Source: Candidatus Tenderia electrophaga (GTDB lineage: Bacteria > Pseudomonadota > Gammaproteobacteria > Tenderiales > Tenderiaceae). Taken from it: 64,000 bases of DNA. The notes under the pieces were generated by a model, which saw only the letters and a program-made list of their open reading frames with translations, did no database searches and was not told the origin of the DNA. Of this stretch, positions 3,238-63,448 are shown one piece after another; within the stretch, counting starts at the first letter, position 1, and each line of letters begins with the position of its first letter. The stretch lies in the NCBI GenBank assembly GCA_001447805.1, contig CP013099.1, positions 1,178,001 to 1,242,000 on the forward strand, written 5' to 3'. Made by a program: the position numbers and the translations under genes.

Positions 3238-3243
3238 TCGGTC

Positions 3244-4146: not shown

Positions 4147-4158
4147 CTGAGCCCTTCA

Positions 4159-4171
4159 CCGGCCGCGCCGG
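4159..4171. terminator. Short GC hairpin between convergent operons
   Basis: CCGGC-CGC-GCCGG lies between the stop of flgL and the stop of the convergent last gene of the glycan island. It has a 5-bp stem and a 3-nt loop but no T tract on either strand. It may act as a weak bidirectional terminator. Confidence 0.3.
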
Positions 4172-4172
4172 C

Positions 4173-7358: not shown

Positions 7359-7990
7359 GCCGACCACTCCAGAAAGTTGTGCAAGAACTGCAGCCCCACC
7401 GGGCCGCTCTTCTCCGGATGGAACTGACAGCCGATGACGCGGCCGTGGCCGATCATGGCGGTGAGCCGATGACCGCCGAAGTCACAGTAACCGATCAGGT
7501 CGCGTTGATCACTGGGCCGGCATTGATACGAATGGACAAAATACACCGCGCTTGCAGCGGGCAGGCCCTGCAACAAGGGATGGCCGCACTCGCTGTGCAG
7601 ATCGGCCCAGCCGACATGCGGGACTTTTAACGGCCGACCGTCGCCGTCGCTGCTCGGTATGGCGCGCACCTCGCCGGGGATCAGCCCCAGGCCGCGATGT
7701 TCGCCGAATTCTTCGCTGCAATCCAGCAACAGCTGCGCGCCCAGACAAATGCCCAGCAGGGGCGTGCCGTTGTCTATGGCGTGTCGGATGGGTTCGACCA
7801 GGCGGCGTTCGTGCAAACCCGCCATGCCGTCACCGAAGGCGCCCACGCCCGGCAGCAATAGCCGCTGCGCCTGCTGGATGGTCGTCGGGCTGTCGCTTAG
7901 AGTGACTGCTGCGCCGAGATGCTCCAGGGCGCGGCAGACACTGAGCAGGTTGCCCACGCCATAATCAATGACCGTCACCTCGGGTTTCAT
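7355..7990 (-). CDS. hisH2: HisH-like glutamine amidotransferase (HisH2)
   Basis: This is a 211-aa class I glutamine amidotransferase of the HisH family. The nucleophile Cys is in LLGICLGAQLLL, and the His-Glu pair is in CQFHPEKSG near the C-terminus. In a nonulosonate cluster beside HisF2 and a PseA/WbpG protein, HisH-type proteins release ammonia from glutamine for acetamidino formation rather than for histidine synthesis. No other his gene is present. ATG 7990 overlaps the HisF2 stop by 4 bp and is preferred to the GTG two codons earlier. Confidence 0.92.
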   Translation of the reverse strand: MKPEVTVIDYGVGNLLSVCRALEHLGAAVTLSDSPTTIQQAQRLLLPGVGAFGDGMAGLHERRLVEPIRHAIDNGTPLLGICLGAQLLLDCSEEFGEHRGLGLIPGEVRAIPSSDGDGRPLKVPHVGWADLHSECGHPLLQGLPAASAVYFVHSYQCRPSDQRDLIGYCDFGGHRLTAMIGHGRVIGCQFHPEKSGPVGLQFLHNFLEWSA

Positions 7991-8781
7991 CGGCACACCT
8001 CGGGCAGTTCACCGGGATCGGGGATATGACGCACCGAGCTGCCGGCCGCGCGCATGGCCTTGTGTAAGGCGTGCACACTGAATCGGTCATAGTGCAGGGC
8101 ATCGGCCACCGCGACGGCGTCGGCGCCCAGTTGCAAGGCCTGGCCGACATGTTCAGGGTCGCCCACGCCACCGGAGGCGATGACCGGGATAGACACCGCC
8201 TCGCTGACCGCGGCGATCAAGTCGGTGTCCATCCCCTTGCGGGTACCCTCCTGGTCGACCGAGGTGAGTAGGATTTCGCCTGCCCCAAGTGTCGCCGCCT
8301 GCTTGGCCCAATCGATCACGTCCAGACCGGTATGTTCACGACCGTTATCTGTGTAGGCCTCCCACCCTGCGCCTTGGCCGCGCTGTTTGGCCTCGATGGA
8401 CAGCACCACGCATTGGCTGCCAAAACGCCGCGCCGCCTCACTGATCAGTGCCGGCCGCCGCACGGCCGCCGTGTTCATGGCTACCTTGTCGGCGCCGGCG
8501 CGCAGGATGGCGGCGACGTCTTCGACGCTGCGTACACCGCCACCGACGGTGAAGGGGATAAAAATATTCTGTGCCGTGTATTGGATGACCTCGGTCAGGT
8601 TATTGCGTTCATACAGCGAAGCGACGATATCCATATAAAGCAGCTCGTCCACGCCGCTTTGATAGTAACGGCGGGCGAATTCGTTGGGATCGCCGAGTTT
8701 GCGCAGGCCCTCCAAGTGAACGCCCTTGATGAGATTAGGGGCCTTGATGTCGAGACGGGCGATGAGTCGTGAGTGCGGCAT
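7987..8781 (-). CDS. hisF2: HisF-like ammonia-channelling barrel (HisF2)
   Basis: This 264-aa TIM barrel is of the HisF family: RLIARLDIKAPNLIKG at strand 1, FTVGGGVRSVEDV, and PVIASGGVGDPEHV for the phosphate-binding sites. The position of the second catalytic Asp of true HisF (the AIDAK motif) reads SIEAKQ. This suggests it is not an imidazole-glycerol-phosphate cyclase but a channel partner for HisH2 and the PseA-like amidotransferase, as known for WbpG-HisH-HisF in Pseudomonas O-antigen clusters. It is flanked by a sulfotransferase gene (6-bp gap) and by hisH2 (4-bp overlap). Confidence 0.92.
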   Translation of the reverse strand: MPHSRLIARLDIKAPNLIKGVHLEGLRKLGDPNEFARRYYQSGVDELLYMDIVASLYERNNLTEVIQYTAQNIFIPFTVGGGVRSVEDVAAILRAGADKVAMNTAAVRRPALISEAARRFGSQCVVLSIEAKQRGQGAGWEAYTDNGREHTGLDVIDWAKQAATLGAGEILLTSVDQEGTRKGMDTDLIAAVSEAVSIPVIASGGVGDPEHVGQALQLGADAVAVADALHYDRFSVHALHKAMRAAGSSVRHIPDPGELPEVCR

Positions 8782-8787
8782 GGTGAG

Positions 8788-9789
8788 CTAGCCTGGGGGA
8801 TAGAATTCGGCGAACACGTAATCCAGGCAACGCATGACCTGGTGTCGATCCGCCTCACTGAGCATGGCGTAGGCACCGCTGGCGCGATCCTTGTCAACTT
8901 TGTTGCCAACATAGGCGCCTTTGCTGCCGCTGCTAAACTGCTGCTGTATGGTGATCGGTTCCACGCCCAGATGTTTGAATACTCGCCCCATGCTGGCCTG
9001 GGTATCCTTGATCAGGTCTTCGAATCTTAACACCAAAACCTGTTCGCGGTTGTGACGGTAGAACTCAATGAAGGGGTCGATCGAATCCTTGTAGATAGCG
9101 ATAGCACGATTGATATTGTTGGTCTGACCGATAAGGTAGCCGGCATTGTTGCGCTTATAGAGCGAGGCGACATTGGCGATGGGGTCGCGGATGATGAATA
9201 TAAACTGTCCATCGGGAAACGAGGCGCGAAGGTGCTCGGCGAAGTGCATGTGCCCGGGGGTCTTCTCACCATACACGGCTGTGTCGTCCTGCGGTTTGTT
9301 ATGCGCTAATTGGCGGATAATGGCGTACATGACGTCAGTCCACAAACAGCCCTCACGCGCCATGTCCAACAGCGGCAGCGGGTCAAGATGTAGGCCGTGT
9401 TCATAGGGCATGAGTTCCTCGGCGCGCAGGAATTCTGTATCCGCCGTCTGACCTTGTATCTCGAGGAGCATTTTGAGGCGCTCGGTGCTGGTGGTGAAAT
9501 AGCGTTGATAGAGATCGGACAGGTACCACTTCAGTTCATTGTAACCGCAGGGGAGCCGGAACAGGTCTTTACGCAGAGCGGTACCGTCGACATACTTCTC
9601 CGGTGCGTCTTGCCGGGGGTGAAATTGTTGATCGACACCCTTGTGCTGTGTCAGCCACAGAAAGAATTGATTGAATATGACCGTGTCGGTGGCGATACCG
9701 ACCGCCGGGTGTTGTTCCAGTAAAGTGGTCAACAGCGACGAGCCGGACTTTTGCGGGCCGAAAATAAAGAATGGACTGTCGCTGCGCAT
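8788..9789 (-). CDS. P-loop sulfotransferase
   Basis: This is a 333-aa cytoplasmic protein. The 5'-phosphosulfate loop FIFGPQKSGSSLLTTLLEQH is at the N-terminus, and the 3'-phosphate signature IIRDPIANVASLYKR is in the middle, as in PAPS-dependent sulfotransferases. The ATG at 9789 is preferred: an AAGGA lies 7 nt upstream, and the longer frame would cover the end of the upstream gene. It would sulfate a hydroxyl group of the island's sugar or of its carrier; the acceptor is inferred only from context. Confidence 0.88.
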   Translation of the reverse strand: MRSDSPFFIFGPQKSGSSLLTTLLEQHPAVGIATDTVIFNQFFLWLTQHKGVDQQFHPRQDAPEKYVDGTALRKDLFRLPCGYNELKWYLSDLYQRYFTTSTERLKMLLEIQGQTADTEFLRAEELMPYEHGLHLDPLPLLDMAREGCLWTDVMYAIIRQLAHNKPQDDTAVYGEKTPGHMHFAEHLRASFPDGQFIFIIRDPIANVASLYKRNNAGYLIGQTNNINRAIAIYKDSIDPFIEFYRHNREQVLVLRFEDLIKDTQASMGRVFKHLGVEPITIQQQFSSGSKGAYVGNKVDKDRASGAYAMLSEADRHQVMRCLDYVFAEFYPPG

Positions 9790-9821
9790 AGACGATCCTT
9801 GTCGCTGTGAATGTTGCAGGC

Positions 9822-11111
9822 TTATCCCCACACGGTGTGGCGCAGCCGCCACTCGCCGTCCTGTTTCATCCATAAATGGGGCGAGCGGAAGCGGTCGCAC
9901 AGGGCCATGAAATAATCGCGATCCATTTTCGGGTGTTCGAACTGGCGGTACGCCTGAGGAAACTCTTTTTCGGTGATGGATAGATAACGGAACACCTCGT
10001 CGGCGAAGCGTTCCGGGAACTCGCCGTCGAAGCGTTTCACCAGGGCCACGCCTTCCTCGCGCTCAATGTCGCCTGAGCGGATCTCCTGGGCCGCGTCGTA
10101 GCTGGCGTGGCCGATGCCGAATTTGATGAAGGTGGTGTAGAAGTGAAAATCGTCCAGCTTGTCGTCGATACTGGCGTACTTTTGATAGGTGCCCGGCGTG
10201 CGTTCGGGTGCCGCCTTGAAGCCGCCTTCGTCCACGGCGTAGTAATAACAGCTCTGTGGATGCCATTTCAGATAATAGCCCAGGTAATGGACCTCTACGC
10301 CCACCCGTTCCAGGTCGTCGGGTTTGGCCGGCAGATAGGGCAGCAGATCTTGTTGTTCCAAGCCGTAGTCCTGCTTCAATGATTGCAGACTGACGCCGGC
10401 CAGATTGATCTGAGACTCATCGCCGCCGGTAAAGTATTTGTAATCGCGCTTGGCCGTTTCCATATCGCCTTGCGGATTGCCGTATTCCGCCTCGTTTTCG
10501 CCGTAGAACACCAGCTTGATGCCGTGCTGAGCGGCGACTTTCGGGGCGATGGCCTTCTGGCCGATGATAAAGGGCTGAAAAGGATGAAACAGGTTTTCCA
10601 CCGCCAAACGCGTCAACAGCCGGTGCACGCGGCCGTTGGGGGTGTGCAAAATATTATCGAAGCCGGCGTGGATCCAGGCCTGAAGATTTTCCCAGCCCCA
10701 GGGCGTATAGATATGGGGCGCCCAGGTCACGGTGAGGGGGTGCATGCCGTATTTGTCTTTGAGGATATGCGCGGCGTAGAAGCTGTCCTTGCCGCCGGAA
10801 CCGGGCAGCAGGCAGTCATAGCTGCCGTCGCTGGAACGAAATTGATCGCACAAGGCCTGCAATTCAGCTTCGCGCGCATCCCAATCGATAGTGGTCTGCT
10901 TTTGCTCCGCCACGCGGCAGGCATCACACACACCATCCGCATCGAAGTTGATAGTCTCCTTCTTGGAGGCCCGGGTATGCTCGTATTCGACGGTAGAGTT
11001 GGGGCGCTGGTTGGAGATGACGCATTTGTTGCAAAACTTCACCTCGCTCGGCAGGCCGTATTTGGCCTCCAGCGTACCATGGTATTGTGTTTTTTCAGAT
11101 GCTTGGTTCAT
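9822..11111 (-). CDS. N-acetyl sugar amidotransferase, PseA/WbpG family
   Basis: The 429-aa protein has an N-terminal zinc-binding part (FCNKCVISNQRPN ... CDAC) followed by the PP-loop LPGSGGKDSFYAAHIL, and continues with the TWAPHIYTPWGWENL block of the family. PseA/WbpG enzymes turn an N-acetyl group into an acetamidino (acetimidoyl) group with ammonia from HisH/HisF-type partners. Those partners are encoded just downstream. I place the start at ATG 11111, 10 bp after the methyltransferase stop; an in-frame start at 11180 would overlap that gene by 59 bp. Confidence 0.92.
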   Translation of the reverse strand: MNQASEKTQYHGTLEAKYGLPSEVKFCNKCVISNQRPNSTVEYEHTRASKKETINFDADGVCDACRVAEQKQTTIDWDAREAELQALCDQFRSSDGSYDCLLPGSGGKDSFYAAHILKDKYGMHPLTVTWAPHIYTPWGWENLQAWIHAGFDNILHTPNGRVHRLLTRLAVENLFHPFQPFIIGQKAIAPKVAAQHGIKLVFYGENEAEYGNPQGDMETAKRDYKYFTGGDESQINLAGVSLQSLKQDYGLEQQDLLPYLPAKPDDLERVGVEVHYLGYYLKWHPQSCYYYAVDEGGFKAAPERTPGTYQKYASIDDKLDDFHFYTTFIKFGIGHASYDAAQEIRSGDIEREEGVALVKRFDGEFPERFADEVFRYLSITEKEFPQAYRQFEHPKMDRDYFMALCDRFRSPHLWMKQDGEWRLRHTVWG

Positions 11112-11121
11112 GGCGAAGATT

Positions 11122-11814
11122 TCATCCCTGAGGTTTTCGACCCACGTATAAAAAGTGAAATCCGCTGCCTTCCCGTTCATAAATTACAGAGTCGTAATAG
11201 CCGATGTGCATGGGCTCGAAGGGGCGGAATTTGTCAATTAATTCGTCTCTATCTGCAGTGAATTGAATGTGCAGAGTTTTGCCTGTAGGAAGTTCCACTC
11301 TGTGCAAACCATCCTGTTGAGCCGTGGCGTAATTGTAATAATAGTTTTTTGTCCCCACCATGGTTGCGACCAACACAGCACCGGGATGCATATGGTGGTA
11401 TAGATAGTCGACCGAGTGACGCATGTCGGTCGGCGATAGAAAATACAGCACCTGGTTGGCCAGCGCCACGTCGAAGCGTTGCTCCAGTTCCGGGTTGTTG
11501 GCAGGGTCGGGCTGGGCGATGAAGAATTGGTCCTGAATTTCGGGCAAGCGCGCCTTACAGGCGGCAATGGCGGTTTCGCTGACATCCATACCGTAGACGT
11601 CGAAGCCATTTTCAAAAAAGAAACGGGCATGGGTGCCGTTGCCACAGCCGAAGTCGAACAAGCGGCTGCCCTGTTTGGCGGGCAGGCCCAGGTCGCCTTT
11701 GAGGATCTTGTTGAACACGCGGATGACATGGCCTTCGGGGTATTGAATACCATAACCGCCGCTGTAGGCCTGTTCGTAGTAATCGCGATTGTTCAGTATA
11801 TAGGTGCGGAGCAT
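11122..11814 (-). CDS. SAM-dependent methyltransferase (possible PtmH-like)
   Basis: This is a 230-aa class I methyltransferase with the SAM-binding motif RLFDFGCGNGTHARFF, followed by the acidic strand end VYGMDVSE and the motif IV-like FDVALANQVLYFLSP. It lies directly before the PseA-like gene. In Campylobacter, PtmH methylates the acetimidoyl group made by PtmG. A similar N-methylation here is inference from position only. O-methylation of the sugar is the alternative. Confidence 0.85.
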   Translation of the reverse strand: MLRTYILNNRDYYEQAYSGGYGIQYPEGHVIRVFNKILKGDLGLPAKQGSRLFDFGCGNGTHARFFFENGFDVYGMDVSETAIAACKARLPEIQDQFFIAQPDPANNPELEQRFDVALANQVLYFLSPTDMRHSVDYLYHHMHPGAVLVATMVGTKNYYYNYATAQQDGLHRVELPTGKTLHIQFTADRDELIDKFRPFEPMHIGYYDSVIYEREGSGFHFLYVGRKPQG

Positions 11815-40605: not shown

Positions 40606-40627
40606 GCCCGTTCGGGCGCCGTTTTTT
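40606..40627 (+). terminator. Terminator after fliJ
   Basis: GCCCGTTCGGGC hairpin (40606-40617), GCCG, then six T (40622-40627). Separates the fliE-J unit from the chemotaxis operon. Confidence 0.65.
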
Positions 40628-40653
40628 GGGTTTAAAGGTATCCAATTTCTATC

Positions 40654-40680
40654 TAAAGCTCACTATTTGTTTGCCGTTAA
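40654..40680 (+). promoter_or_regulatory. Sigma-28 promoter of the first chemotaxis operon
   Basis: TAAAG, 14 nt, GCCGTTAA: one mismatch from the FliA consensus with ideal spacing. Lies 47 bp before the STAS gene and directly after the fliJ terminator. Confidence 0.8.
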
Positions 40681-40727
40681 CAAAGGTGTGCGATTCGAGC
40701 GACCAGAAACCGAAAGCAGGGGTGTCT

Positions 40728-41030
40728 ATGACGCAAGAGAATGAAACAGCGGTCTCCGAAACCGAGATGCTGATCGAGTGCGATGAAGCACTGGATATCT
40801 CGGTAGCGTCCGATTTCAAGGCGCTGTTGCAGCAGGCCATGGTGCAGGGTTGCCCCGTGGTTTTGGACGGCTCGCGCGTTGAGCGCATCGATTGCGCCGC
40901 GCTGCAACTGCTTTCCGCCTTTTTTTTAGAAGCGCAGGAAAGCGGCTTTGAGGTTAGCTGGCGCAACCCCAGCCAGGCATTACGATACGCCGCCGATATG
41001 ACTGGTCTGAAAGAGACGCTCCATTTGTAG
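40728..41030 (+). CDS. STAS-domain (anti-anti-sigma-like) protein
   Basis: The 100-aa protein is a single STAS domain: LIECDEALDISVASDFKALL, then VVLDGSRVERIDCAALQLLS with Asp before the Cys at the position where Ser or Thr is phosphorylated in SpoIIAA. It heads the che operon, as in several F7-type clusters. Its partner is not in the window. ATG 40728 with AGGGG upstream is preferred over a frame start at 40626. Confidence 0.85.
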   Translation: MTQENETAVSETEMLIECDEALDISVASDFKALLQQAMVQGCPVVLDGSRVERIDCAALQLLSAFFLEAQESGFEVSWRNPSQALRYAADMTGLKETLHL

Positions 41031-41081
41031 TACATCCACTTCTGCAGGCCATGCACGGAAGAATAATGAGGGGAAATAGCA

Positions 41082-41444
41082 ATGCCGACAATACTTGCAG
41101 TTGACGATTCAGCATCCATGCGCCAGATGGTGACCTTTACCTTGAAGGGTGCGGGATTTACCGTCATCGACGCTGTCGACGGTGTCGATGCGTTGGGCAA
41201 GGCCAAGAGCGCCAAGGTGGACCTGGTGCTGACCGACGTCAATATGCCGAAAATGGATGGCATCAGTCTGATTAAAGAACTGCGCGCGCTGTCCAATTAC
41301 AAATTCACTCCAATTTTGATGTTGACCACCGAGTCCGGCGGCGACAAAAAGATGGAAGGCAAGAGTGCCGGCGCCACCGGATGGATAGTCAAACCCTTCA
41401 ACCCGGACCAGTTGCTGGCGACGATCAAGAAAGTCCTGGGTTGA
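41082..41444 (+). CDS. cheY1: CheY-type response regulator (operon 1)
   Basis: This 120-aa single receiver domain has DD at TILAVDDSASM, the phospho-Asp in LVLTDVNMPKMDG, Thr at MLTTES and Lys at WIVKPF. It differs clearly from the second CheY (59051-59446). It probably serves CheA1 directly downstream and may act as a phosphate sink or control another output. Confidence 0.94.
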   Translation: MPTILAVDDSASMRQMVTFTLKGAGFTVIDAVDGVDALGKAKSAKVDLVLTDVNMPKMDGISLIKELRALSNYKFTPILMLTTESGGDKKMEGKSAGATGWIVKPFNPDQLLATIKKVLG

Positions 41445-41454
41445 GGGCGCAGCA

Positions 41455-43575
41455 ATGAGCATCGATATCAGCCAATTCCTCGATACATTTTATGAGGAAA
41501 GTTTCGAAGGTCTGGATACTATGGAGACCGAGTTGCTGGCGCTCAAACCGGGCGAGGCCGATGGTGAATCGATCAACACCATCTTTCGCGCTGCGCATTC
41601 CATCAAGGGTGGCAGCGGCACCTTCGGCCTTGGCGCCGTCAGTGACTTCACCCATGTGCTGGAAACCCTGTTGGATCAGATGCGCGACGGCCGGCGCGAG
41701 GTGACACAAGCGGCGGTGGAACTCATGTTGGCCTCGGTGGATGTGTTGCGCGACATGCTCAATGCCCTGCGCGACGGCAGCGACATCGATAGCGATCGTG
41801 TCAACGAAGTACATGGCCAGCTGGAGGCCCTGCTGCAGGGTGATGCCGCGCCGCAAACAGAGCAGGCCGACGCGCAGCCGCTCACCACCGATGCGCAGGC
41901 CGCGTCGGTGGCGAACGGCTGGACGGTGCATTTCAAACCCTTTGCCCACTTGTTTAAAACCGGCAACGATCCGGTCCGGATTATCAGAGAGCTGGCCGAT
42001 CTGGGCAGCATGCAGGCCAGCGTCGACCTCACCGCCCTGCCCGAATTCGATTTGCTCGATCCGGAAGAATGCTACCTCGCCTGGCGCATCAACCTGGACG
42101 GTGATATCAGCGAAGCCCAGATCAGAGACGTATTCGTCTGGGTGGAAGATGACTGCGACTTGAGCGTGGAGGCATGTGCTGCCCCCCCTGAAGCCAGCGA
42201 CTCAAAAGCGCATCTTGAACAGGGTGAAGCCCCGGGCGGGAACGACGCAGGCGCCGTTGAAATTCAGGCCGATGAGACACGCGCGCGTGAAACCGTACAG
42301 CAGCCCCAGGCCGGCGCTGAGCAAGCCAAATCTCAGACAGCGGCCCCTGCGACGAAGAAGCAGGCCAACGCTGAATCCGGCTCCATCCGCGTCGGAATCG
42401 ATAAGGTGGACGCGCTCATCAATATGGTGGGCGAATTGGTCATCACCCAGTCCATGCTCAATCAGCTGGGCGAAGAATTCACTATGGACCGGGTGCAAAA
42501 ACTGCAAGAAGGTTTGACCGAACTCGAACGACATACACGCGAATTACAGGAAAATGTCATGCGCATTCGCATGCTGCCAATCAGCTTTTCCTTTAACCGC
42601 TTCCCGCGTCTAGTCCACGATCTGAGCACCAAGCTCGATAAGAAAGTGGAGCTGAAGATGTCAGGTGAACAGACCGAGCTCGACAAGACGGTGATGGAGA
42701 AGATCGGCGACCCGCTGGTCCACCTGGTCAGGAACTCCTTGGATCACGGCATCGAATCGCCCGAAGAACGCCAGGCCAAAGGTAAGCCCGAAACCGGCAC
42801 CTTGCATCTCAACGCCTATCATCAGGGCGGCAACATCGTTATCGAGATTCATGACGACGGGGCCGGTCTGGATGCCGAGCGCATACGTGCCAAGGCCATC
42901 GAGAAGGGCCTGGTTAATGAGCATGAAGAGCTGTCACACGACAAGATCTATGACTTGATATTTGCGCCGGGATTTTCCACCGCCAAGGAAGTCAGCGATG
43001 TCTCCGGCCGCGGCGTGGGCATGGACGTGGTCAAGCGTAATATCAAAGACCTTGGCGGTGTGGTCGAGGTGAAGTCGGAGCAAGGGTTGGGGTCGACGTT
43101 TACCATCCGCCTGCCCCTGACCCTGGCCATCCTCGACGGACAGCTGGTGCGCATCGGCGATCAGACCTACGTGGTGCCTCTGGTATCCATCATCGAGTCC
43201 CTGCAGATCAAGTCGGAAAAAGTCAGTTCTATCGCCGGCGGTACGGAGTTGTACAAGCTGCGGGATGACTATCTGCCGATTATTCGTATGCATGAGCTGT
43301 TTAATATCGAGTCGGACAACACCGAACTGGTCAACGGCCTACTGGTGGTGGTTGAAGGCGAAGGTCAAATGGCCGGTATATTCGTGGACGATCTACTGGG
43401 TCAGCAACAGGTGGTGATCAAGAGTCTCGAAACGAATTATAAAAAGGTGAAAGGCCTCTCTGGAGCGACCATTTTGGGCGATGGTACCGTCGCCATGATA
43501 CTGGATGTGCAGGGTCTCGTGGCCTTGTCGCGAGAACGGCTTAGATCCCTCAGGGACCGGTCCGCGGTTGCCTAG
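41455..43575 (+). CDS. cheA1: Chemotaxis histidine kinase CheA (F7-like)
   Basis: The 706-aa kinase has a P1 Hpt domain (H48 in FRAAHSIKGGSGTFG), a P2-like segment (about 158-240, GWTVHFKPFAHLFKTGNDP), an Ala/Gln/Glu-rich linker, then P3-P4 from about 313 (DALINMVGELVITQSML, HLVRNSLDHGIESPE, SGRGVGMDVVKRNI) and a P5 CheW-like domain. It is followed by cheW at 21 bp. No receptor gene is nearby. Confidence 0.96.
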   Translation: MSIDISQFLDTFYEESFEGLDTMETELLALKPGEADGESINTIFRAAHSIKGGSGTFGLGAVSDFTHVLETLLDQMRDGRREVTQAAVELMLASVDVLRDMLNALRDGSDIDSDRVNEVHGQLEALLQGDAAPQTEQADAQPLTTDAQAASVANGWTVHFKPFAHLFKTGNDPVRIIRELADLGSMQASVDLTALPEFDLLDPEECYLAWRINLDGDISEAQIRDVFVWVEDDCDLSVEACAAPPEASDSKAHLEQGEAPGGNDAGAVEIQADETRARETVQQPQAGAEQAKSQTAAPATKKQANAESGSIRVGIDKVDALINMVGELVITQSMLNQLGEEFTMDRVQKLQEGLTELERHTRELQENVMRIRMLPISFSFNRFPRLVHDLSTKLDKKVELKMSGEQTELDKTVMEKIGDPLVHLVRNSLDHGIESPEERQAKGKPETGTLHLNAYHQGGNIVIEIHDDGAGLDAERIRAKAIEKGLVNEHEELSHDKIYDLIFAPGFSTAKEVSDVSGRGVGMDVVKRNIKDLGGVVEVKSEQGLGSTFTIRLPLTLAILDGQLVRIGDQTYVVPLVSIIESLQIKSEKVSSIAGGTELYKLRDDYLPIIRMHELFNIESDNTELVNGLLVVVEGEGQMAGIFVDDLLGQQQVVIKSLETNYKKVKGLSGATILGDGTVAMILDVQGLVALSRERLRSLRDRSAVA

Positions 43576-43596
43576 TGCGGAATTAAGGAGATTGCA

Positions 43597-44112
43597 ATGA
43601 ATATGATTCAGGGCCTGGATATGGATACGATCGCGGGCGACAGCGACGGCAACCAGTATCTAACCTTTATGCTGGCCGGTGAGGAATACGGGCTGGATAT
43701 TCTGAGAGTGCGGGAGATCAAGGGCTGGGACAATGTGACACCCATTCCCAATACACCCAAATACATCAAGGGCGTGATCAATCTGCGTGGCACGATAGTG
43801 CCGATTATCGATCTGCGCCAGCGCTTTTCCCTGGACGCCATCGAATACGGCCCCACCACGGTGGTGATTGTACTCAAGGTGAATAGCGAAAAAGGCAGCC
43901 GCACCATGGGTATTGTGGTGGACGCGGTCTCCGAGGTCTACAACATCGATGAAGAATCGCTAAAGGCGGCGCCTGATTTCGGTCAAGCGATCAGTACCGA
44001 TTTTGTAAAAGGCTTGGGTACGGTGGATGAAAAGATGATTATCGTTCTGGATATCGATCATCTTCTGAATTCAAGCGTGCTGAACGCGGTGGTTGACCAA
44101 GCGACCGAATAG
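43597..44112 (+). CDS. cheW: Chemotaxis coupling protein CheW
   Basis: This 171-aa CheW has YLTFMLAGEEYGLDILRVRE, PNTPKYIKGVINLRGTIVPI and DLRQRFSL. It bridges CheA and receptors. RBS AAGGAG lies 7 nt before the ATG. It is the only cheW in the window. Confidence 0.96.
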   Translation: MNMIQGLDMDTIAGDSDGNQYLTFMLAGEEYGLDILRVREIKGWDNVTPIPNTPKYIKGVINLRGTIVPIIDLRQRFSLDAIEYGPTTVVIVLKVNSEKGSRTMGIVVDAVSEVYNIDEESLKAAPDFGQAISTDFVKGLGTVDEKMIIVLDIDHLLNSSVLNAVVDQATE

Positions 44113-44202
44113 AATCAAATTGCTATAGAACGCATTCTTTTCAACAAAACAAAGCATCCCATGTCGCGCCGCTCGATGGTCGCTGGTCAGGAAGAAAATT
44201 GA

Positions 44203-45033
44203 ATGTCGAGGGAATTCGAGTTTACCGATAAGCATTTTCAACAAATTAGAAAGCTGGTTCTAGAGCATACCGGTATTCATCTTTCCGATATCAAGATGGA
44301 TATGGTCTATAGTCGTTTGGCGCGCCGTCTGCGGCAACTCCATCTCAACTCCTTCACCGACTACCTGGAACTGCTGGCGCAGGGCGATGATGGTGAGCTG
44401 GGCAATTTCGTAAACTCCATCACCACCAATCTAACGTCGTTTTTTCGTGAGCAGCATCATTTTGAATATCTGAAGGCCACCGTACTGCCGCAGCTGATGC
44501 GACTCAATGCGGCCAGCAAGACCATCCGCATTTGGTCGGCCGGATGTTCCTCCGGTGAAGAGCCTTATAGTCTCGCCATTACAGTGAAGGAGGCCATCCC
44601 CGACAAGCTCGGCTGGGACGTCCGCATTCTGGCCACCGACCTCGATACCAACGTGATCGCCACCGGTAGTGAAGGCGTCTATACCTTGGAACGCGTCAAC
44701 GGCCTGCCTCCGGCGGTGCTGAAACGCTGGTTTTATCGCGGCACGGGTGAGCGCGCCGGTCTGGTCAAGGCTTCCTCGGCGCTGCGTGATTTAATCATAT
44801 TCAAACAACTCAATCTGATGGGCGACTGGCCCGTCAAAGCGGGGGTCGATGTCATCTTTTGCCGTAACGTGGTGATCTATTTCGATAAGGATACCCAGCG
44901 CCGCCTGTTTCACCGCTATGCCGATATCCTGCGCTCCGACGGCTACCTCTTCGTCGGGCATTCAGAAACGCTCTATAAGGTCTCCGAGCGTTTTAGGTTG
45001 TTGGGCAAAACCGTTTATCAGAGGATGGCCTGA
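44203..45033 (+). CDS. cheR: Chemoreceptor methyltransferase CheR
   Basis: The 276-aa SAM-dependent enzyme methylates receptor glutamates. It has the N-terminal helical domain (SRLARRLRQLHLNSFTDYLE), the SAM motif IRIWSAGCSSGEEPYSLAIT and CRNVVIYFDKDTQRRLFHRY. The stop shares a base with the cheD start. The 90-bp gap after cheW contains no gene, although receptors often sit here in F7 clusters. Confidence 0.96.
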   Translation: MSREFEFTDKHFQQIRKLVLEHTGIHLSDIKMDMVYSRLARRLRQLHLNSFTDYLELLAQGDDGELGNFVNSITTNLTSFFREQHHFEYLKATVLPQLMRLNAASKTIRIWSAGCSSGEEPYSLAITVKEAIPDKLGWDVRILATDLDTNVIATGSEGVYTLERVNGLPPAVLKRWFYRGTGERAGLVKASSALRDLIIFKQLNLMGDWPVKAGVDVIFCRNVVIYFDKDTQRRLFHRYADILRSDGYLFVGHSETLYKVSERFRLLGKTVYQRMA

Positions 45034-45683
45034 TGACAGGCGGATTCACTACAGCGCGGCCGGAGGCGAGGCAGCCTAAGGCATTGCCCGGCTTTTCCCA
45101 TATCAATCGTTATTGGGACAAGATGCACGATGTCTATGCCGCCAAGATCCTGCCCGGCGAATATTATGTCAGTCTGGAAGGGGAAATGATCGTCACGGTA
45201 TTGGGCTCTTGTGTCTCGGCCTGTATTCGCGACAGTGTGTTCGGCATCGGTGGCATGAATCACTTCATGCTGCCCATCGGCGCCGCGGGCGGCGGTAGCA
45301 ACAGCACCTGGAACAATGCCGCCACGCGTTACGGCAATTTCGCTATGGAGGCGTTGATCAACGATGTGCTGAAGCACGGCGGCCGGCGCGAAAATCTGGA
45401 GTTGAAGATTTTCGGCGGCGGTATGGTGATGGAGCATATGACCAACATCGGCAAACAGAATATCGCCTTCGTGCATGAATTCATCAAAACCGAGGGGCTC
45501 AAGTTATTGGCGGAAGACTTGGGGGGTATCTATCCCCGGAAGGTCCACTATTTTCCCCAGTCCGGCAAGGTGAGGATGAAGAAGCTGCGCTCCATGCACA
45601 ACAGGACCATTATCGAGCGTGAAGCCGATTATATGGACAGCCTCGAGACCAAGCCCATCGAGGGTGAAATCGATCTGTTCTGA
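45033..45683 (+). CDS. cheD: Chemoreceptor glutamine deamidase CheD
   Basis: The 216-aa enzyme has the catalytic Cys in [14 protein letters not shown] and His in [11 protein letters not shown]. It deamidates receptor glutamines to sites for CheR. It is encoded between cheR and cheB, which form the adaptation module. Confidence 0.95.
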
Positions 45684-45697
45684 TCGATGCGGACGCG

Positions 45698-46768
45698 ATG
45701 GCTAAGATCAAAGTCCTAATCGTTGATGACTCCGCCCTGGTGCGTAAGCTGCTGACGGAAATGTTGTCCGATGCCCCCGGCATCGAGGTGGTCGGTGCGG
45801 CGCAGGATCCCTATATCGCCCGTGAAAAGATCAAGCAACTGCAGCCCGACGTGCTTACCCTGGATGTGGAAATGCCACGCATGGACGGACTCACCTTTCT
45901 CAAGAACCTGATGCGTTTGCACCCCATGCCGGTGGTGATGGTGTCGTCCCTCACCGAAGCGGGCGCCGATGTCACCCTCGAAGCCCTGGAAACCGGCGCC
46001 ATCGATTTCGTCACCAAGCCCAAGCTGGATCTGGCCGAAGGCCTCGGCGCCTATCGCGATGAACTGGTTAACAAGCTGAAGACCGCCGCCGCCGTCAGCA
46101 AGACCGCCTTGCTGATACGCTCCGCTTCGCTCCAGGTGCGCCAGAAGAACAGTGTCGATGCGGTGATCCAAAAGGAAATCGGTAAGCACTATCGCACCAC
46201 CGATCGGCTCATCGCCATGGGTGCGTCCACCGGGGGCACGGAGGCCATCCGCGAGGTGTTGGTCGACATGCCCCCGGATGCGCCGGGCATTGTGATCGCA
46301 CAGCACATCCCCGCCGCCTTTAGCGAACCGTTCGCCCGGCGTATGGACAGCCTTTGTGCCATTCACGTCAAACAGGCCGAGGATGGAGATCAGATCCTTC
46401 CCGGTCATGCCTATATCGCGCCGGGCGACGCGCACTTGCTGGTGGTGCGTGACGGGGCCAAATATCGCTGTCGTCTCAGCGACGGTCCGCCGGTGAATCG
46501 GCATCGCCCGGCGGTGGACGTATTGTTTCGCTCGGTGGCGCAGACTGCCGGTCCCAATGCCCTGGGGGTGATCCTGACCGGAATGGGCGCCGATGGCGCC
46601 GACGGCTTGAATGAGATGCGCCAGGCCGGCGCCCAGACCATCGCCCAGGACGAGAAGACCAGCGTGGTCTGGGGCATGCCGGGCGAGGCGGTCAAGCGCG
46701 GCGCTGTGGATTTCGTCCTGCCGCTCAACACGGTCGTGCGCAAGCTCATCGAACTGATTCGGAAATAG
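45698..46768 (+). CDS. cheB1: Chemotaxis methylesterase CheB (operon 1)
   Basis: The 356-aa protein has a receiver domain ([27 protein letters not shown]) and a C-terminal methylesterase with Ser in [11 protein letters not shown], His in [11 protein letters not shown] and Asp in [11 protein letters not shown]. It closes the first che operon; fliK follows with its own promoter. Confidence 0.96.
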
Positions 46769-48888: not shown

Positions 48889-49896
48889 ATGTCAGTAAAC
48901 GACCTGTTATCACAAGACGAAATCGACGCCCTGTTACACGGCGTCGACGGCGGTGACGTCGAGACCGAAGAAGACATCTTCGACGGCGAGGCCAAGGCCT
49001 ACGATTTCACCAGTCAGGATAGGATCGTGCGCGGGCGCATGCCTACCCTGGAGATGATCAACGAGCGCTTCGCCCGCTATTTCCGGACCAGCCTGTTCAA
49101 CATGCTGCGCCGCACCGCCGAGATCGCCGTCGGCGGCGTGCAGATGCTCAAGTTCGCCGAATACGTTCACACCCTGTTCGTGCCCACCAGCCTGAATCTG
49201 GTCCACGTGAAGCCACTGCGCGGTACCGGACTGTTCGTCTTCGATCCCAAATTCGTATTCATCGTGGTGGACAACTTTTTCGGTGGCAGCGGCAAGTTCT
49301 ACAACAAGATCGAGGGCCGCGAATTCACCCATACCGAGAACCGTATCATCGAGATGATGCTGCAAAAGGCGTTTCAGAATATGAAGGATGCCTGGGCGCC
49401 GGTCATGGATGTGGATTTCGAATTTCAGAACTCAGAGGTCAATCCGCACTTCGCCAATATCGTCAGCCCCACCGAGGTGGTGGTGATCTCCACGTTTCAT
49501 ATTGAATTGGACGGCGGCGGCGGTGACATCCATGTCACCATCCCGTACTCCATGCTCGAGCCGATCCGTGAATTACTCGACGCCGGCACCGTCAGCGACC
49601 GTACCGAGGTGGACGAGCGCTGGACCCGGGCGCTGATGGAAGACATCAAAGAAGCCAATATCGACGTCAAGAGCACCCTCACCGAGGTGGATATGAGCTT
49701 GCGCGAGGTTCTTAACATGAAGGCGGGCGATATCATCCCCTTTGATTTTCCCGAACGGGTCATTTTGGCCACCGAGGACGATGTGCCCGTGTTTCGCGGC
49801 AAATTCGGCGTCCACCACAGCAATAATGCCATCCGCATCATAGAGCCGATCAAGGCCGGCCTACCCGTTGTTACCAAGCCAGGAGTTGACCGATGA
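48889..49896 (+). CDS. fliM: Motor switch protein FliM
   Basis: The 335-aa C-ring protein starts with the CheY-P binding peptide LLSQDEIDALLHGVDGG (residues 5-21). The middle domain has RYFRTSLFNMLRRTAEIAVG and the C-terminal domain is FliN-like. It overlaps fliN by 4 bp. Confidence 0.97.
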   Translation: MSVNDLLSQDEIDALLHGVDGGDVETEEDIFDGEAKAYDFTSQDRIVRGRMPTLEMINERFARYFRTSLFNMLRRTAEIAVGGVQMLKFAEYVHTLFVPTSLNLVHVKPLRGTGLFVFDPKFVFIVVDNFFGGSGKFYNKIEGREFTHTENRIIEMMLQKAFQNMKDAWAPVMDVDFEFQNSEVNPHFANIVSPTEVVVISTFHIELDGGGGDIHVTIPYSMLEPIRELLDAGTVSDRTEVDERWTRALMEDIKEANIDVKSTLTEVDMSLREVLNMKAGDIIPFDFPERVILATEDDVPVFRGKFGVHHSNNAIRIIEPIKAGLPVVTKPGVDR

Positions 49897-59050: not shown

Positions 59051-59446
59051 TTGGACAAGAACATGAAAATCCTGATTGTAGATGACTTCTCTACGATGCG
59101 TAGGATTATAAAGAATCTGCTCAGGGATCTGGGCTTCAATAATACCGACGAAGCCGACGACGGCAACACCGCGTTGCCGAAACTCCAAAACGGCGATTTC
59201 GATTTTCTGGTGACTGACTGGAACATGCCCGGCATGCAAGGTATCGACCTGCTCAAGGCCGTGCGCGCCGACGCCAAGCTTGCGAGTCTCCCCGTGCTGA
59301 TGGTGACCGCCGAGGCAAAAAAGGAACAGATCGTGGCCGCGGCCCAGGCCGGGGTCAATGGGTATATCGTCAAGCCATTTACCGCAGCTACCCTGAAAGA
59401 AAAAATTGACAAAATATTTGAACGGCTCGAAGCGAGCCAGGGCTGA
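59051..59446 (+). CDS. cheY2: Motor-binding response regulator CheY (F6)
   Basis: This 131-aa CheY has [20 protein letters not shown], the phospho-Asp in [24 protein letters not shown] and [20 protein letters not shown], nearly as in Vibrio CheY3 and Pseudomonas CheY. It is the likely regulator of motor direction through FliM. The start is TTG 59051, 9 nt after GGAGG; an ATG four codons later is an alternative. Confidence 0.96.
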
Positions 59447-59477: not shown

Positions 59478-60239
59478 ATGATTCAAAACCAAATATGCAG
59501 TGACCAAGGTCTCGAGTACGCCAAGAAATTGCTTGAGTGCATCGAACAGGGAAGGGCTGAAGAAGCGGAACAGGTGCTGGAAGATATTTCCGCCTTGCGC
59601 GAGAGCGAACTGTTTCAGGAGCTTGGCAAGCTGACACGCGATTTGCATGATTCTCTGATGAGTTTTCAGTTGGATCCCAAGATGGCGGACATGGCGCAAA
59701 AGGATATCCCGGATGCCAAAGAGCGCCTGAATCACGTCATCACCATGACCGAGGACGCTGCCGACAAAACCCTAACCGCAGTGGAAGGTTCCCTCAAGCA
59801 GTTTGATGAGCTGAGGGAAAAGGCCACGCGGCTGCAGACCAATTGGGTCCGTTTCAGAAAACGGGACATGGACGTGGATGAGTTCCGCGCCATGAGCGCG
59901 GAGATCGATGAATTTTTTAAGTGGCTGGACGACAAAGGAAGCGCAATCAACGCCGGTCTGTCGGACATCATGATGGCGCAGGACTTCCAGGATTTGACCG
60001 GGCAGATCATTCGCCGCGTCATTACCCTGGTGCAGGATGTGGAAGACGGGCTGGTGAGTCTGATCCGCATGACCGGTCACAAGATGCACACAGAGGAACA
60101 GGGACAGGGGAAACAGGAGAAACAGAAACAAGGGCCGGATATTGAAGCCGTGGGTCCGGCGGTCCCGGGCGTCGATCAAGCCGACGTGGTCAATGGCCAG
60201 GACGACGTTGACGACCTGCTGTCCAGCCTCGGTTTCTAA
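59478..60239 (+). CDS. cheZ: CheY-P phosphatase CheZ
   Basis: The 253-aa helical protein has the active-site region MMAQDFQDLTGQIIRRVITL (about 164-183, with the catalytic Gln), a Gln/Lys/Glu-rich linker and a C-terminal CheY-binding tail QDDVDDLLSSLGF. It ends CheY signalling. The tail resembles the FliM N-terminus and the three motifs of the downstream CheA. Confidence 0.95.
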   Translation: MIQNQICSDQGLEYAKKLLECIEQGRAEEAEQVLEDISALRESELFQELGKLTRDLHDSLMSFQLDPKMADMAQKDIPDAKERLNHVITMTEDAADKTLTAVEGSLKQFDELREKATRLQTNWVRFRKRDMDVDEFRAMSAEIDEFFKWLDDKGSAINAGLSDIMMAQDFQDLTGQIIRRVITLVQDVEDGLVSLIRMTGHKMHTEEQGQGKQEKQKQGPDIEAVGPAVPGVDQADVVNGQDDVDDLLSSLGF

Positions 60240-60274: not shown

Positions 60275-62392
60275 ATGGCAATCGATCTAAACGATGAAAT
60301 TCTGCAGGACTTTCTAGTCGAAGCGGGCGAGATCCTCGACCAGTTGGGCGAACAATTGGTTGAATTGGAGCGCAGTCCCGACGACCTCGACTTGCTGAAT
60401 GCCGTTTTTCGTGGCTTTCACACCGTCAAGGGCGGTGCCGGATTTCTTGGGCTGAATGCCTTGGTGGAGGTGTGTCACCGTGCCGAGGATGTGTTCAACC
60501 TGTTGCGTCAGGGCGAGCGTCAGGTCAACCCGCAGTTGATGGATGTCATTCTGAAGGTCACCGACATCGTCAATGAGATGATGGATTACATCCGCTCCGG
60601 CGAGGACCCGCCCGAAGCAGCGCCGGAAATCCTGCAGGCCTTGGAGGCCATCCTCAAGGGTGAAACGATCGCGGCTGCACCGGCTGCCGAGGCCCCTGAA
60701 TCGATTCCTGAGCCGCCGGCGGCTCAGGCCGCCCCCACGGCCGACGAAGCGCGAGCAGGCGCCTCCGACGAAGAAATCAGCGACGACGAATTCGAAGCCC
60801 TGCTGGACGAATTACAGGGCAGTCCCAAGCCCGCCGCCGAGACTGAAACAGCGGCTCCCGCTGCGGACAATGACGTGGCCGGCGCGGCCGACTCGGATGA
60901 GATTTCCGAGGAAGAATTCGAGGCCTTGCTGGATCAATTGCAGGGTTCGGGTGAAGTGGCAACGCCCGCCCCCAGCGCCAGCGACGCGGCGGTCTCCACA
61001 GGGGCGCCGCAGGGCGCAGTCGCCGGCGGCGATTCCGACGAGATTGGCGAAGATGAGTTCGAGGCCCTGCTGGACGAGCTCGAATCCAAGAAGCAGACAC
61101 AGCCTGACGCGGGCCAGGTCTCTCAGCCTGCGCCTCAGCCGCCGGCCGAGAAGGCGCCGCCGCAAACCGCCGCCAAAGCCGCGCCCGCCAAGCCCGCCAA
61201 GGAGGCGGCGCCGGTTGCCGAGACCAGTGTGCGCGTGGATACCAAGCGTCTGGACGACATTATGAACCTGGTCGGCGAGCTGGTGTTGGTGCGCAATCGC
61301 ATGGCGACCCTGAAAACCAACATGGCCGCCGACGGTGAGGTGAGTAAGGCCATCGCCAATCTCGATCTGGTCACCGCCGATCTGCAAAGTTCGGTGATGA
61401 AGACCCGCATGCAGCCGATCAAGAAGGTATTCGGCCGTTTCCCCCGCGTGGTGCGCGACTTGGCCCGCAGTCTCAAGAAAGAAGTCAATCTTGAACTCAT
61501 CGGTGAAGATACCGACTTGGACAAGAACCTGGTGGAGGCCCTGGCCGACCCGCTAGTGCATCTGGTGCGCAACTCCGTCGACCATGGGATCGAAATGCCG
61601 GACGAACGCGAGCAAGCGGGCAAGGACCGCACCGGCACCGTCGTGTTGTCGGCGCAGCAGGAGGGTGACCACATCCTGCTCATGATCGAGGACGACGGTA
61701 AGGGCATGGATCCGGACACCTTGCGCCAGATCGCGGTGAGCAAAGGTGTGATCGATGAAGACACCGCCGCGCGTCTGGATGACAAGGCCTGCTACAACCT
61801 GATTTTCGCCCCGGGCTTTTCCACCAAATCAGAGATCTCCGATATCTCCGGGCGCGGTGTCGGTATGGACGTGGTCAAAACGCGTATTGCGCAACTCAAC
61901 GGCGCAATCGAGATCGACTCCACGCTGGGGCGGGGCAGCCGCATTATTATCAAGCTGCCGCTGACCCTGGCGATCATGCCGACCCTGATGGTGGTGCTCG
62001 GCGAGCAGGTGTTCGCCCTGCCGCTGGCCAATGTCAGTGAAATATTCGATATGGATTCGGCCAAGCGCAGCACGGTTGACGGCAAAGAGGTGGTCATCAT
62101 TCGTGAAAAGGCCGTGCCCCTGGTGCGCCTCAGGTCTTGGCTGATCAAGGGCCATGCCGCCAATGTCGAGACCGAGGGCGATGGTTTCGTTGTCGTCACA
62201 GCGGTGGGCAATCAATTGATCGGTTGCGTGGTTGATCAGCTGGTGGGCCAGGAAGAAGTGGTGATCAAACCCCTGGGCGCCATGTTGCACGGCACTAAAG
62301 GCATTTCCGGTGCCACAATCACAGGTAATGGTGGAATCGCCCTAATACTGGATATGCCAGGGCTCATGGAAGCCTATGCCAGCCGTTTGTAG
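60275..62392 (+). CDS. cheA2: Chemotaxis histidine kinase CheA (F6)
   Basis: The 705-aa kinase has P1 with H49 (FRGFHTVKGGAGFLGL), then no ordinary P2 but an Ala/Pro-rich linker holding three copies of an acidic motif at about residues 164-182, 206-225 and 252-270 (core EISDDEFEALLDELQGS and variants). P3-P4 begin at about 317 (RLDDIMNLVGELVLVRN, HLVRNSVDHGIEMPDE, SGRGVGMDVVKTRI) and a CheW-like P5 ends the protein. The linker corresponds to the region called LID in Vibrio CheA. Confidence 0.97.
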   Translation: MAIDLNDEILQDFLVEAGEILDQLGEQLVELERSPDDLDLLNAVFRGFHTVKGGAGFLGLNALVEVCHRAEDVFNLLRQGERQVNPQLMDVILKVTDIVNEMMDYIRSGEDPPEAAPEILQALEAILKGETIAAAPAAEAPESIPEPPAAQAAPTADEARAGASDEEISDDEFEALLDELQGSPKPAAETETAAPAADNDVAGAADSDEISEEEFEALLDQLQGSGEVATPAPSASDAAVSTGAPQGAVAGGDSDEIGEDEFEALLDELESKKQTQPDAGQVSQPAPQPPAEKAPPQTAAKAAPAKPAKEAAPVAETSVRVDTKRLDDIMNLVGELVLVRNRMATLKTNMAADGEVSKAIANLDLVTADLQSSVMKTRMQPIKKVFGRFPRVVRDLARSLKKEVNLELIGEDTDLDKNLVEALADPLVHLVRNSVDHGIEMPDEREQAGKDRTGTVVLSAQQEGDHILLMIEDDGKGMDPDTLRQIAVSKGVIDEDTAARLDDKACYNLIFAPGFSTKSEISDISGRGVGMDVVKTRIAQLNGAIEIDSTLGRGSRIIIKLPLTLAIMPTLMVVLGEQVFALPLANVSEIFDMDSAKRSTVDGKEVVIIREKAVPLVRLRSWLIKGHAANVETEGDGFVVVTAVGNQLIGCVVDQLVGQEEVVIKPLGAMLHGTKGISGATITGNGGIALILDMPGLMEAYASRL

Positions 62393-62401
62393 GAGAACAC
62401 C

Positions 62402-63448
62402 ATGCCGGTTCGGGTCCTGGTTGTCGATGACTCATCATTTTTCAGAAAGCGACTGACCGAAATACTCAATGGCGATAACCATATTGAAGTCGTCGGTGCG
62501 GCGATCAATGGCAAGGAGGCCATCGAGCTTGTAAAAAAGCTTAAACCCGATGTCGTCACCATGGACATCGAGATGCCGGTGATGGACGGCATTACCGCGG
62601 TGCGCAAGATCATGCAGTCCGATCCGCTGCCTATCCTCATGTTTTCATCCCTGACCACCGACGGCGCCAAGGCGACGCTGGACGCACTTGAAGCCGGTGC
62701 GACTGATTTTCTGCCCAAGCGCATGGAAGACATCTCGCAGGACCGGGAGTCGGCCAAACGTCAGCTCTGCGCGCGCGTGCGTTTGATCGGTGCCCGGGGC
62801 TTGCAAAAGGGCCCGCTACTCGCGGCCAAACCCCAGTTCGCCGCGCCGGCGCCAAAACCGGCCCCCGGGCTGCGGCGCGGCAAGTTCAGATTGGTGGCCA
62901 TCGGGACGTCGACGGGCGGACCGGTGGCCTTGCAACAAGTGCTGACCGGTCTGCCGGCCTCTTTTCCTTTGCCTATCCTGCTGGTGCAGCACATGCCGGC
63001 CAGTTTCACGCCGGCCTTTGCCGAACGTCTCAACAAGTTGTCGGCCATTCGTATCAAAGAGGCCTGCGACGGCGATCGTTTGGAAAACGGCTGCGCCTAT
63101 CTGGCCCCGGGCGGGATGCAGTTGCTGCTGGAGGAACGCCACGGCGGCGCCGTGATCCGCATAGTCGAAAGCCGTCCGGGACAGACCTACAAGCCCAGCG
63201 TGGACGTTACCTTCGGCTCGGCCTCGAAACTGTTCGGCGCGGATGTATTGGCCATTGTGCTCACCGGTATGGGTGCCGATGGGCGCGAGGGTGCGCGCAT
63301 GCTGAAGCACGGGGGTGCCAGCGTCTGGGCTCAGGACAAGGGCAGCAGTGTGATCTACGGCATGCCAGCGGCTGTAGTCGAGGCCGGGCTGGCCGATAAG
63401 GTATTAGCGTTGAATGCAATCGGCCCCAGCTTAATGGAAGTGGTGTAA
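62402..63448 (+). CDS. cheB2: Chemotaxis methylesterase CheB (operon 2)
   Basis: This 348-aa CheB has the receiver motifs VRVLVVDDSSFFRKRL and VVTMDIEMPVMDGI and an esterase domain with IGTSTGGPVALQ, LLVQHMPASFTPAF and [15 protein letters not shown]. It is only partly similar to CheB1; each che operon has its own. It starts 10 bp after cheA2. Confidence 0.96.
   Translation: MPVRVLVVDDSSFFRKRLTEILNGDNHIEVVGAAINGKEAIELVKKLKPDVVTMDIEMPVMDGITAVRKIMQSDPLPILMFSSLTTDGAKATLDALEAGATDFLPKRMEDISQDRESAKRQLCARVRLIGARGLQKGPLLAAKPQFAAPAPKPAPGLRRGKFRLVAIGTSTGGPVALQQVLTGLPASFPLPILLVQHMPASFTPAFAERLNKLSAIRIKEACDGDRLENGCAYLAPGGMQLLLEERHGGAVIRIVESRPGQTYKPSVDVTFGSASKLFGADVLAIVLTGMGADGREGARMLKHGGASVWAQDKGSSVIYGMPAAVVEAGLADKVLALNAIGPSLMEVV

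Follow-up and report, generated by a model that had tools for sequence, protein, structure and literature searches.

Three copies of a FliM/CheZ-like motif, putative CheY-docking peptides, in the linker, lacking a detectable P2, of CheA2 from Candidatus Tenderia electrophaga

Introduction

A CheA kinase without a P2 domain leaves open how the kinase finds CheY. Nearly 52% of surveyed CheA proteins have no P2, and AlphaFold places an extended unstructured region at the position where P2 would be expected; a short linker motif is not mentioned in the accessible part of the paper that reports these figures (PMC10782961). In the literature searched, whose coverage leaves subscription papers largely outside, we found no description of a CheA docking motif and no binding test of the motif described here, and the motif strings themselves gave no match. 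Here, we address the question with CheA2 of Candidatus Tenderia electrophaga, encoded in a window of 64,000 nucleotides (the whole stretch of DNA that was analysed; contig CP013099.1, positions 1,178,001 to 1,242,000 of the forward strand).

Domain layout of CheA2

The following features of the window surround and make up the CheA2 locus.

cheY, 59051..59446, + strand; proposed docking partner, with CheY proteins as its best PDB matches
cheZ, 59478..60239, + strand; C-terminal tail NGQDDVDDLLSSLGF (60192-60236), which fits the common pattern given below
cheA2, 60275-62392, + strand; 705 aa, layout P1-linker-P3-P4-P5, P2 not detectable
P1-P3 linker of CheA2, 60665..61216, + strand; aa 131-314, low-complexity and mostly predicted disordered, housing the motif copies
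CheB-like gene, 62402-63448, adjoining cheA2; named from a reading of its translation

An earlier note on this DNA had placed cheA2 at these coordinates and in this frame, which proved correct, and had described the protein as lacking P2. The latter claim is borne out by Pfam, which assigns Hpt (8-106), H-kinase_dim (317-377), HATPase_c (425-564) and CheW (571-699) domains and, up to an E value of 1, finds neither a P2 nor a CheY-binding family. No match to the folded PF09078 or PF07194 lies between P1 and P3, the AlphaFold prediction of CheA2 contains no folded domain at the position of P2, and a PDB sequence search with the linker returned no match. The Pfam families listed for 67 CheA relatives (25 of 61) likewise include no P2 family. 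NCBIfam CheA models cover CheA2 over its full length, with scores under the model cut-offs. The gene order cheY-cheZ-cheA-cheB-motC-motD-parC-parP-cheW is present here and fits that of the F6 class of CheA; the assignment rests on this order, with cheY, cheZ and cheA called by Pfam and the remaining genes by reading their translations.

Motif copies in the linker

Motif copy 1, 60770..60832, + strand; aa 166-186, core SDDEFEALLDEL, predicted helix aa 170-180
Motif copy 2, 60896..60958, + strand; aa 208-228, core SEEEFEALLDQL, predicted helix aa 212-222
Motif copy 3, 61037..61099, + strand; aa 255-275, variant core GEDEFEALLDEL, predicted helix aa 259-271

A motif of about 14 residues occurs three times in the P1-P3 linker of CheA2, at aa 167, 209 and 256, the third copy being a variant. 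The copies read EEISDDEFEALLDELQGS (aa 166-183), DEISEEEFEALLDQLQGS (208-225) and DEIGEDEFEALLDELESK (255-272). Three repeats of a core xEISxDEFEALLDxLxGS at a spacing of about 43 residues had been described before, and the three copies are confirmed; the spacing, however, is 42 and 47 aa rather than a constant 43, and the core is slightly idealised, as copy 2 reads SEEEFE and copy 3 has IGED and lacks the GS. A motif profile of 42 rows, 3 of them CheA2's own copies, recovers only the three CheA2 copies from the six frames of the own genome (E 1.7e-10, 1.1e-9 and 2.4e-8), the best further match having an E value of 2.2. Judged from this search, the three copies are not a chance occurrence. At the DNA level, the copies differ pairwise at 16-19 of 54 bases, with silent/replacing codon differences of 9/4 (copies 1-2), 7/6 (copies 1-3) and 6/6 (copies 2-3), and therefore do not represent a fresh DNA duplication.

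Conservation and predicted structure

Outside the motif copies, the CheA2 linker is poorly conserved. Relative to five members of the same family, residue differences amount to 24-33% in the motif, 69-79% in the other linker and 14-20% in P3-P5. In the alignment of 67 proteins, invariant linker columns are found solely within copies 2 and 3, and of the linker columns in which at least 70% of the proteins share a residue, nearly all lie inside the three copies. This distribution of changes argues that the motif is under selection.

The AlphaFold model of CheA2, built on the 67-sequence alignment, has a pLDDT below 50 over most of aa 136-320. Within this region, helices are predicted at 170-180, 212-222 and 259-271, with block mean confidences of 76, 83 and 80, respectively. 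The predicted helices coincide with the copies, and each begins just past a Ser, Ser or Gly cap position. Such islands of confident helix amid disorder are characteristic of peptides that acquire structure upon binding.

The copies could instead be SHOCT-like helices serving oligomerisation or another contact within the array, as Pfam SHOCT (PF09851) matches 67 of 67 relatives at E <= 1, with a best E value of 3.9e-9, and reaches 23.4 bits over three stretches of the isolated CheA2 linker. Membership of that family is taken as a match over the whole 28 positions at more than 27 bits; in the window, the match extends only over profile positions 11-27 of 28 and falls below the 27-bit cut-off, both for whole CheA2 (15.4 bits) and for the linker. 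Moreover, every copy is preceded by a variable segment that is predicted to be disordered. We consider SHOCT-like helices a very unlikely explanation. The partial match in the window overlaps the motif and possibly reflects a common helix-cap pattern.

Distribution of the motif

Named CheA relatives were surveyed as the best 80 of 585 confirmed, a set biased to close ones. Copies were scored with a matrix made from 206 copies of these 80 relatives at a threshold of 15 bits, which 264 of their linker windows exceed, the top of 4000 shuffled linkers being 8.2. Counting the repeats across Gammaproteobacteria, a check proposed in the earlier note, gave 2-4 copies in all 80 of the best 80 relatives of 585 (three in 48, four in 28, two in 4) and the motif in 108 of the 276 genomes of a class sample. 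CheZ is found in 102 of the 108 motif-positive genomes and in 118 of the 276 altogether. In a phylum sample, 73 of 397 genomes carry the motif, all 73 from the same class, the class make-up of the 397 not being given. Among the matches listed, most fall in open frames of a length that suits CheA; in all 20 gene clusters that were inspected, CheA is the protein that carries the motif. The motif is general, not local.

The usual form in relatives is D[ED]I[TS]DDEFE[AS]LLDQLHGKG[KQ]F, and Phe occupies the core position in 206 of 206 survey copies, where FliM has Ile and CheZ has Val. Copies that end in Phe, commonly as HGKGKF or HGKGQF, make up 129 of the 264 in relatives L033-L112 (best 80 of 585); this type of tail is missing from the CheA2 copies of the window. 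Two CheA proteins, L282 (genome G181) and L188 (genome G269), contain divergent repeats such as GEITDDEFEALLNQRD, present three times, in which the ITDxEFExLL core is kept and the tail is lost. These tail-less repeats would mark a minimal core.

Comparison with CheA1

P2-like domain of CheA1, 41914..42177, + strand; aa 154-241 of CheA1 (41455-43575), no motif copy

The second kinase of the window presents the opposite arrangement: in CheA1, a P2-like domain occurs and the motif does not, in CheA2 the reverse. The CheA1 domain scores 117 bits against an HMM of five sister domains chosen by eye. Its single-sequence model is of low confidence (pLDDT 63.7) and adopts a beta-alpha-beta-beta-alpha-beta order, with ferredoxin-like folds as best matches, none of them at E <= 0.001. 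Pfam finds no P2 family in this domain, PDB sequence searches gave nothing or chance matches, and profile-profile comparison with a PF09078-type pair is weak (E 0.0055, 31 columns, probability 6.6). Its identification as P2 from position, sister HMM and the low-confidence ferredoxin-like model is moderately supported. As the sister-domain HMM misses the enteric-type P2 of L186 and L187 and the domains of L178 and L180, it is by itself no proof that P2 is absent from CheA2. The second chemosensory gene set, to which CheA1 belongs, at 40626-46768, comprises a STAS protein, a CheY-like protein (second CheY, 41082-41444), CheA1, CheW, CheR and CheB by Pfam, and lies within flagellar genes, after fliJ and before an ORF at 46877.

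A related contrast is seen across genomes. PF09078 is found in 2 of the 276 class genomes (G162 and G249), both motif-negative. Sixteen genomes are CheZ-positive and motif-negative, 14 of them with a CheA dimerisation match; a P2-like CheA is present in 8 of the 16, degenerate motif copies in one (two copies, in G269), and 7 were not classed. The P2-like calls were made by Pfam PF09078 for G162 and G249 and by eye for G021, G033, G101, G165, G207 and G226, four of these six domains being seeds of the sister-domain HMM. Motif-positive G096 encodes both kinds of kinase, L176 being a P2-like CheA and L204 one with the motif.

Comparison with FliM and CheZ

fliM, 48889..49896, + strand; N-terminus LLSQDEIDALLHGV, which fits the common pattern

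The N-terminus of FliM and the C-terminus of CheZ are CheY-binding peptides (e.g., PDB 1F4V, 1KMI), and the likeness of the CheA2 copies to both can be condensed into the pattern [STNG][DEQ][DE][DE][FIV][DE]xLLxx[LV]. Across the 68,810 six-frame ORF residues of the window (1.6e-4 matches expected by composition), this pattern is confined to CheA2, with all three copies, the FliM N-terminus and the end of CheZ. In the loci of the best 80 of 585 relatives, it recovers 190 CheA copies, 74 CheZ tails and nothing else among 1,056,457 residues, while 74 of the 264 CheA copies do not match the strict form. Since the CheA, FliM and CheZ sequences themselves served to define the pattern, information comes only from its failure to match elsewhere. 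Relaxed and searched as DNA, the pattern has 13 matches in the own genome, five inside the window (the three CheA copies, FliM and CheZ) and eight elsewhere, the latter in ORFs, some of them antisense, that by reading could not be interpreted as chemotaxis genes.

Scored with a substitution matrix, the core SDDEFEALL has the FliM N-terminal SQDEIDALL as its top non-CheA match in the window frames (29, next 25), and the 11-residue CheZ core likewise has FliM as top match over all window frames (28, next 23). Only cores of 9-11 residues rank FliM first in the window. FliM loses the top place among non-CheA matches when the CheA queries are extended to 14 residues, copy 1 placing it behind two other proteins, and the highest score of the 15-residue CheZ tail falls in an antisense frame of the window. 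CheZ tails were extracted from 69 of the 80 loci (best 80 of 585 relatives; 11 left out), most of them in the form QD[DE]VDDLLSSLGF. When sequence windows were ordered by their BLOSUM62 score to the CheA copies of the same locus, the tail came 1st in 18 of the 69, 2nd-5th in 34 and 6th-50th in 17, among 1,820-11,624 windows per locus, the loci being related and hence not independent. FliM N-termini, obtained by pattern for 22 of 29 loci (7 left out), read LLSQ[DE]EID[AT]LL in all 22. In G018, G020, G033, G156 and G251, CheZ was matched in two pieces (profile ~2-79 and 102-203), as if the middle were shortened or divergent.

A sequence profile common to CheA, FliM and CheZ was considered and rejected: the profile of 206 CheA copies recovers neither FliM nor CheZ. 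Because this profile misses both and longer queries are unspecific, the likeness is one of pattern and not of close homology. The resemblance claimed in the earlier note, to two peptides that are indeed both encoded in the window, thus stands beyond chance as a pattern and does not extend to recognition by profile.

Association with ParC and ParP

The same note had offered binding of a ParP-like localisation factor as an alternative to CheY docking. In this explanation, the copies would be CheA-LID or part of it, binding the AIF domain of ParP and helping to tether arrays at the cell pole. In Vibrio CheA, LID is reported from the interval between P2 and P3 and only alongside ParC/ParP, according to the accessible parts of PMC7534058 and PMC5706961. 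The copies are nearly the sole conserved islands of their linker, ParC and ParP follow cheA2 downstream in the own genome (read from L113), and ParC/ParP are found downstream in 70 of 71 relatives' loci with at least 6 kb of downstream sequence (best 80 of 585). In addition, 2-3 copies are present in 78 of 82 motif genomes with a ParP match versus 1-2 copies in 22 of 26 without, a comparison that is confounded by phylogeny; the fewer copies without ParP may reflect phylogeny or a second role. The clusters of L271, L272, L277 and L286 contain ParC, with no recognised ParP between ParC and CheW.

As the presence of ParP in 70 of 71 loci could not separate the hypotheses, genomes with the motif and without ParP were inspected. 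A single-sequence ParP search matched 85 of the 276 genomes, 82 of them motif-positive, which left 26 motif-positive genomes without a match, and the cheA neighbourhood was inspected in 20 of these. Seven of the 20 clusters keep 1-3 copies of the motif with no ParC/ParP nearby (G018, G020, G030, G146, G161, G163 and G181). A ParP profile search over the whole genomes covered the 26 genomes, the own genome and G269. It found no match in G181, while each of the six others had only weak ones (E 1e-9 to 8e-7, compared with 8.9e-8 for the own CheW). The weak matches of G018, G030, G146 and G161, and one in G163, are the CheW proteins of the clusters; the remaining weak matches, in G020 and G163, lie outside this assignment. 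Since copies persist in these seven clusters, ParP is unlikely to be the sole reason for the motif, unless it is too divergent to be seen there. Nor are FliM and CheZ known to be partners of ParP. The identity of the copies with CheA-LID therefore appears doubtful to us, and localisation by a ParP-like factor is disfavoured as their sole function.

Discussion

It is fairly likely, in our view, that an array of CheY-docking peptides does the job of P2 in CheA2. The CheY of the window matches PDB sequences 3to5 and 1a0o with E values of 4.8e-68 and 9.1e-56, respectively, and is identical to E. coli CheY at A90, K92, I95, Y106, V108, F111, T112 and K119, residues that line the alpha4-beta5-alpha5 face. 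Published CheY complexes have the FliM N-terminus and the CheZ tail bound to this very face. A single folded P2 would be replaced by a flexible linker carrying three short helical peptides, each of which probably binds the alpha4-beta5-alpha5 face of CheY as the FliM and CheZ peptides do. Such docking would raise the local concentration of CheY next to the phospho-histidine of P1; after phosphotransfer, CheY would depart to FliM or CheZ. With several weak sites on each chain, avidity and fast exchange may be combined. We infer the binding itself, the face used, a role of copy number and any preference of the peptides for unphosphorylated CheY.

The copies might also dock another response regulator domain, such as that of CheB or CheV, instead of or besides CheY, or bind a different partner altogether. 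CheY and CheB are both bound by P2 as described in the accessible part of PMC10782961. The CheB-like gene, by reading, directly adjoins cheA2. The pattern, however, is common to FliM and CheZ, which are partners of CheY, and we judge docking of another partner to be highly improbable.

If docking of CheY by the linker peptides is correct, it would provide an answer for a large set of kinases that includes the relatives in Pseudomonas, Stutzerimonas, Alteromonas, Marinobacter and Pseudoalteromonas. A drawing of P. putida CheA with a Pfam-predicted CheY-binding domain (accessible part of PMC11978298) counts against such docking, that protein lying outside the compared set. Motor, phosphatase and kinase would furthermore compete for one face of CheY through related peptides. 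With evenly divided confidence, we hypothesize that a gammaproteobacterial CheA lineage swapped its folded P2 for a peptide array of variable number that imitates the downstream targets of CheY, so that kinase, motor and phosphatase compete via one peptide code and copy number acts as an evolvable dial of docking strength.

The proposed arrangement can be set against three known systems. Like the P2 domains of PF09078 and PF07194, the copies sit between P1 and P3, and the job proposed for them is likewise the holding of CheY near P1; P2, however, is a single folded domain, whereas the motif copies, 2-4 per relative, are predicted to form short helices within a linker that is otherwise disordered. 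CheA-LID of Vibrio, compared by description, resembles the copies as an element of the P1-P3 linker in a ParC/ParP-linked CheA; unlike CheA-LID, the motif is also present where ParC/ParP were not found, as in the seven clusters above, which may encode a divergent ParP. With the FliM and CheZ peptides, the copies share a helix cap, an acidic run and hydrophobic residues at i, i+3, i+4 and i+7. Those peptides are terminal, whereas the CheA2 copies are internal (aa 166-275 of 705) and repeated; at position i, the CheA copies have Phe (206 of 206), often followed by HGKGKF, a tail that neither FliM nor CheZ possesses.
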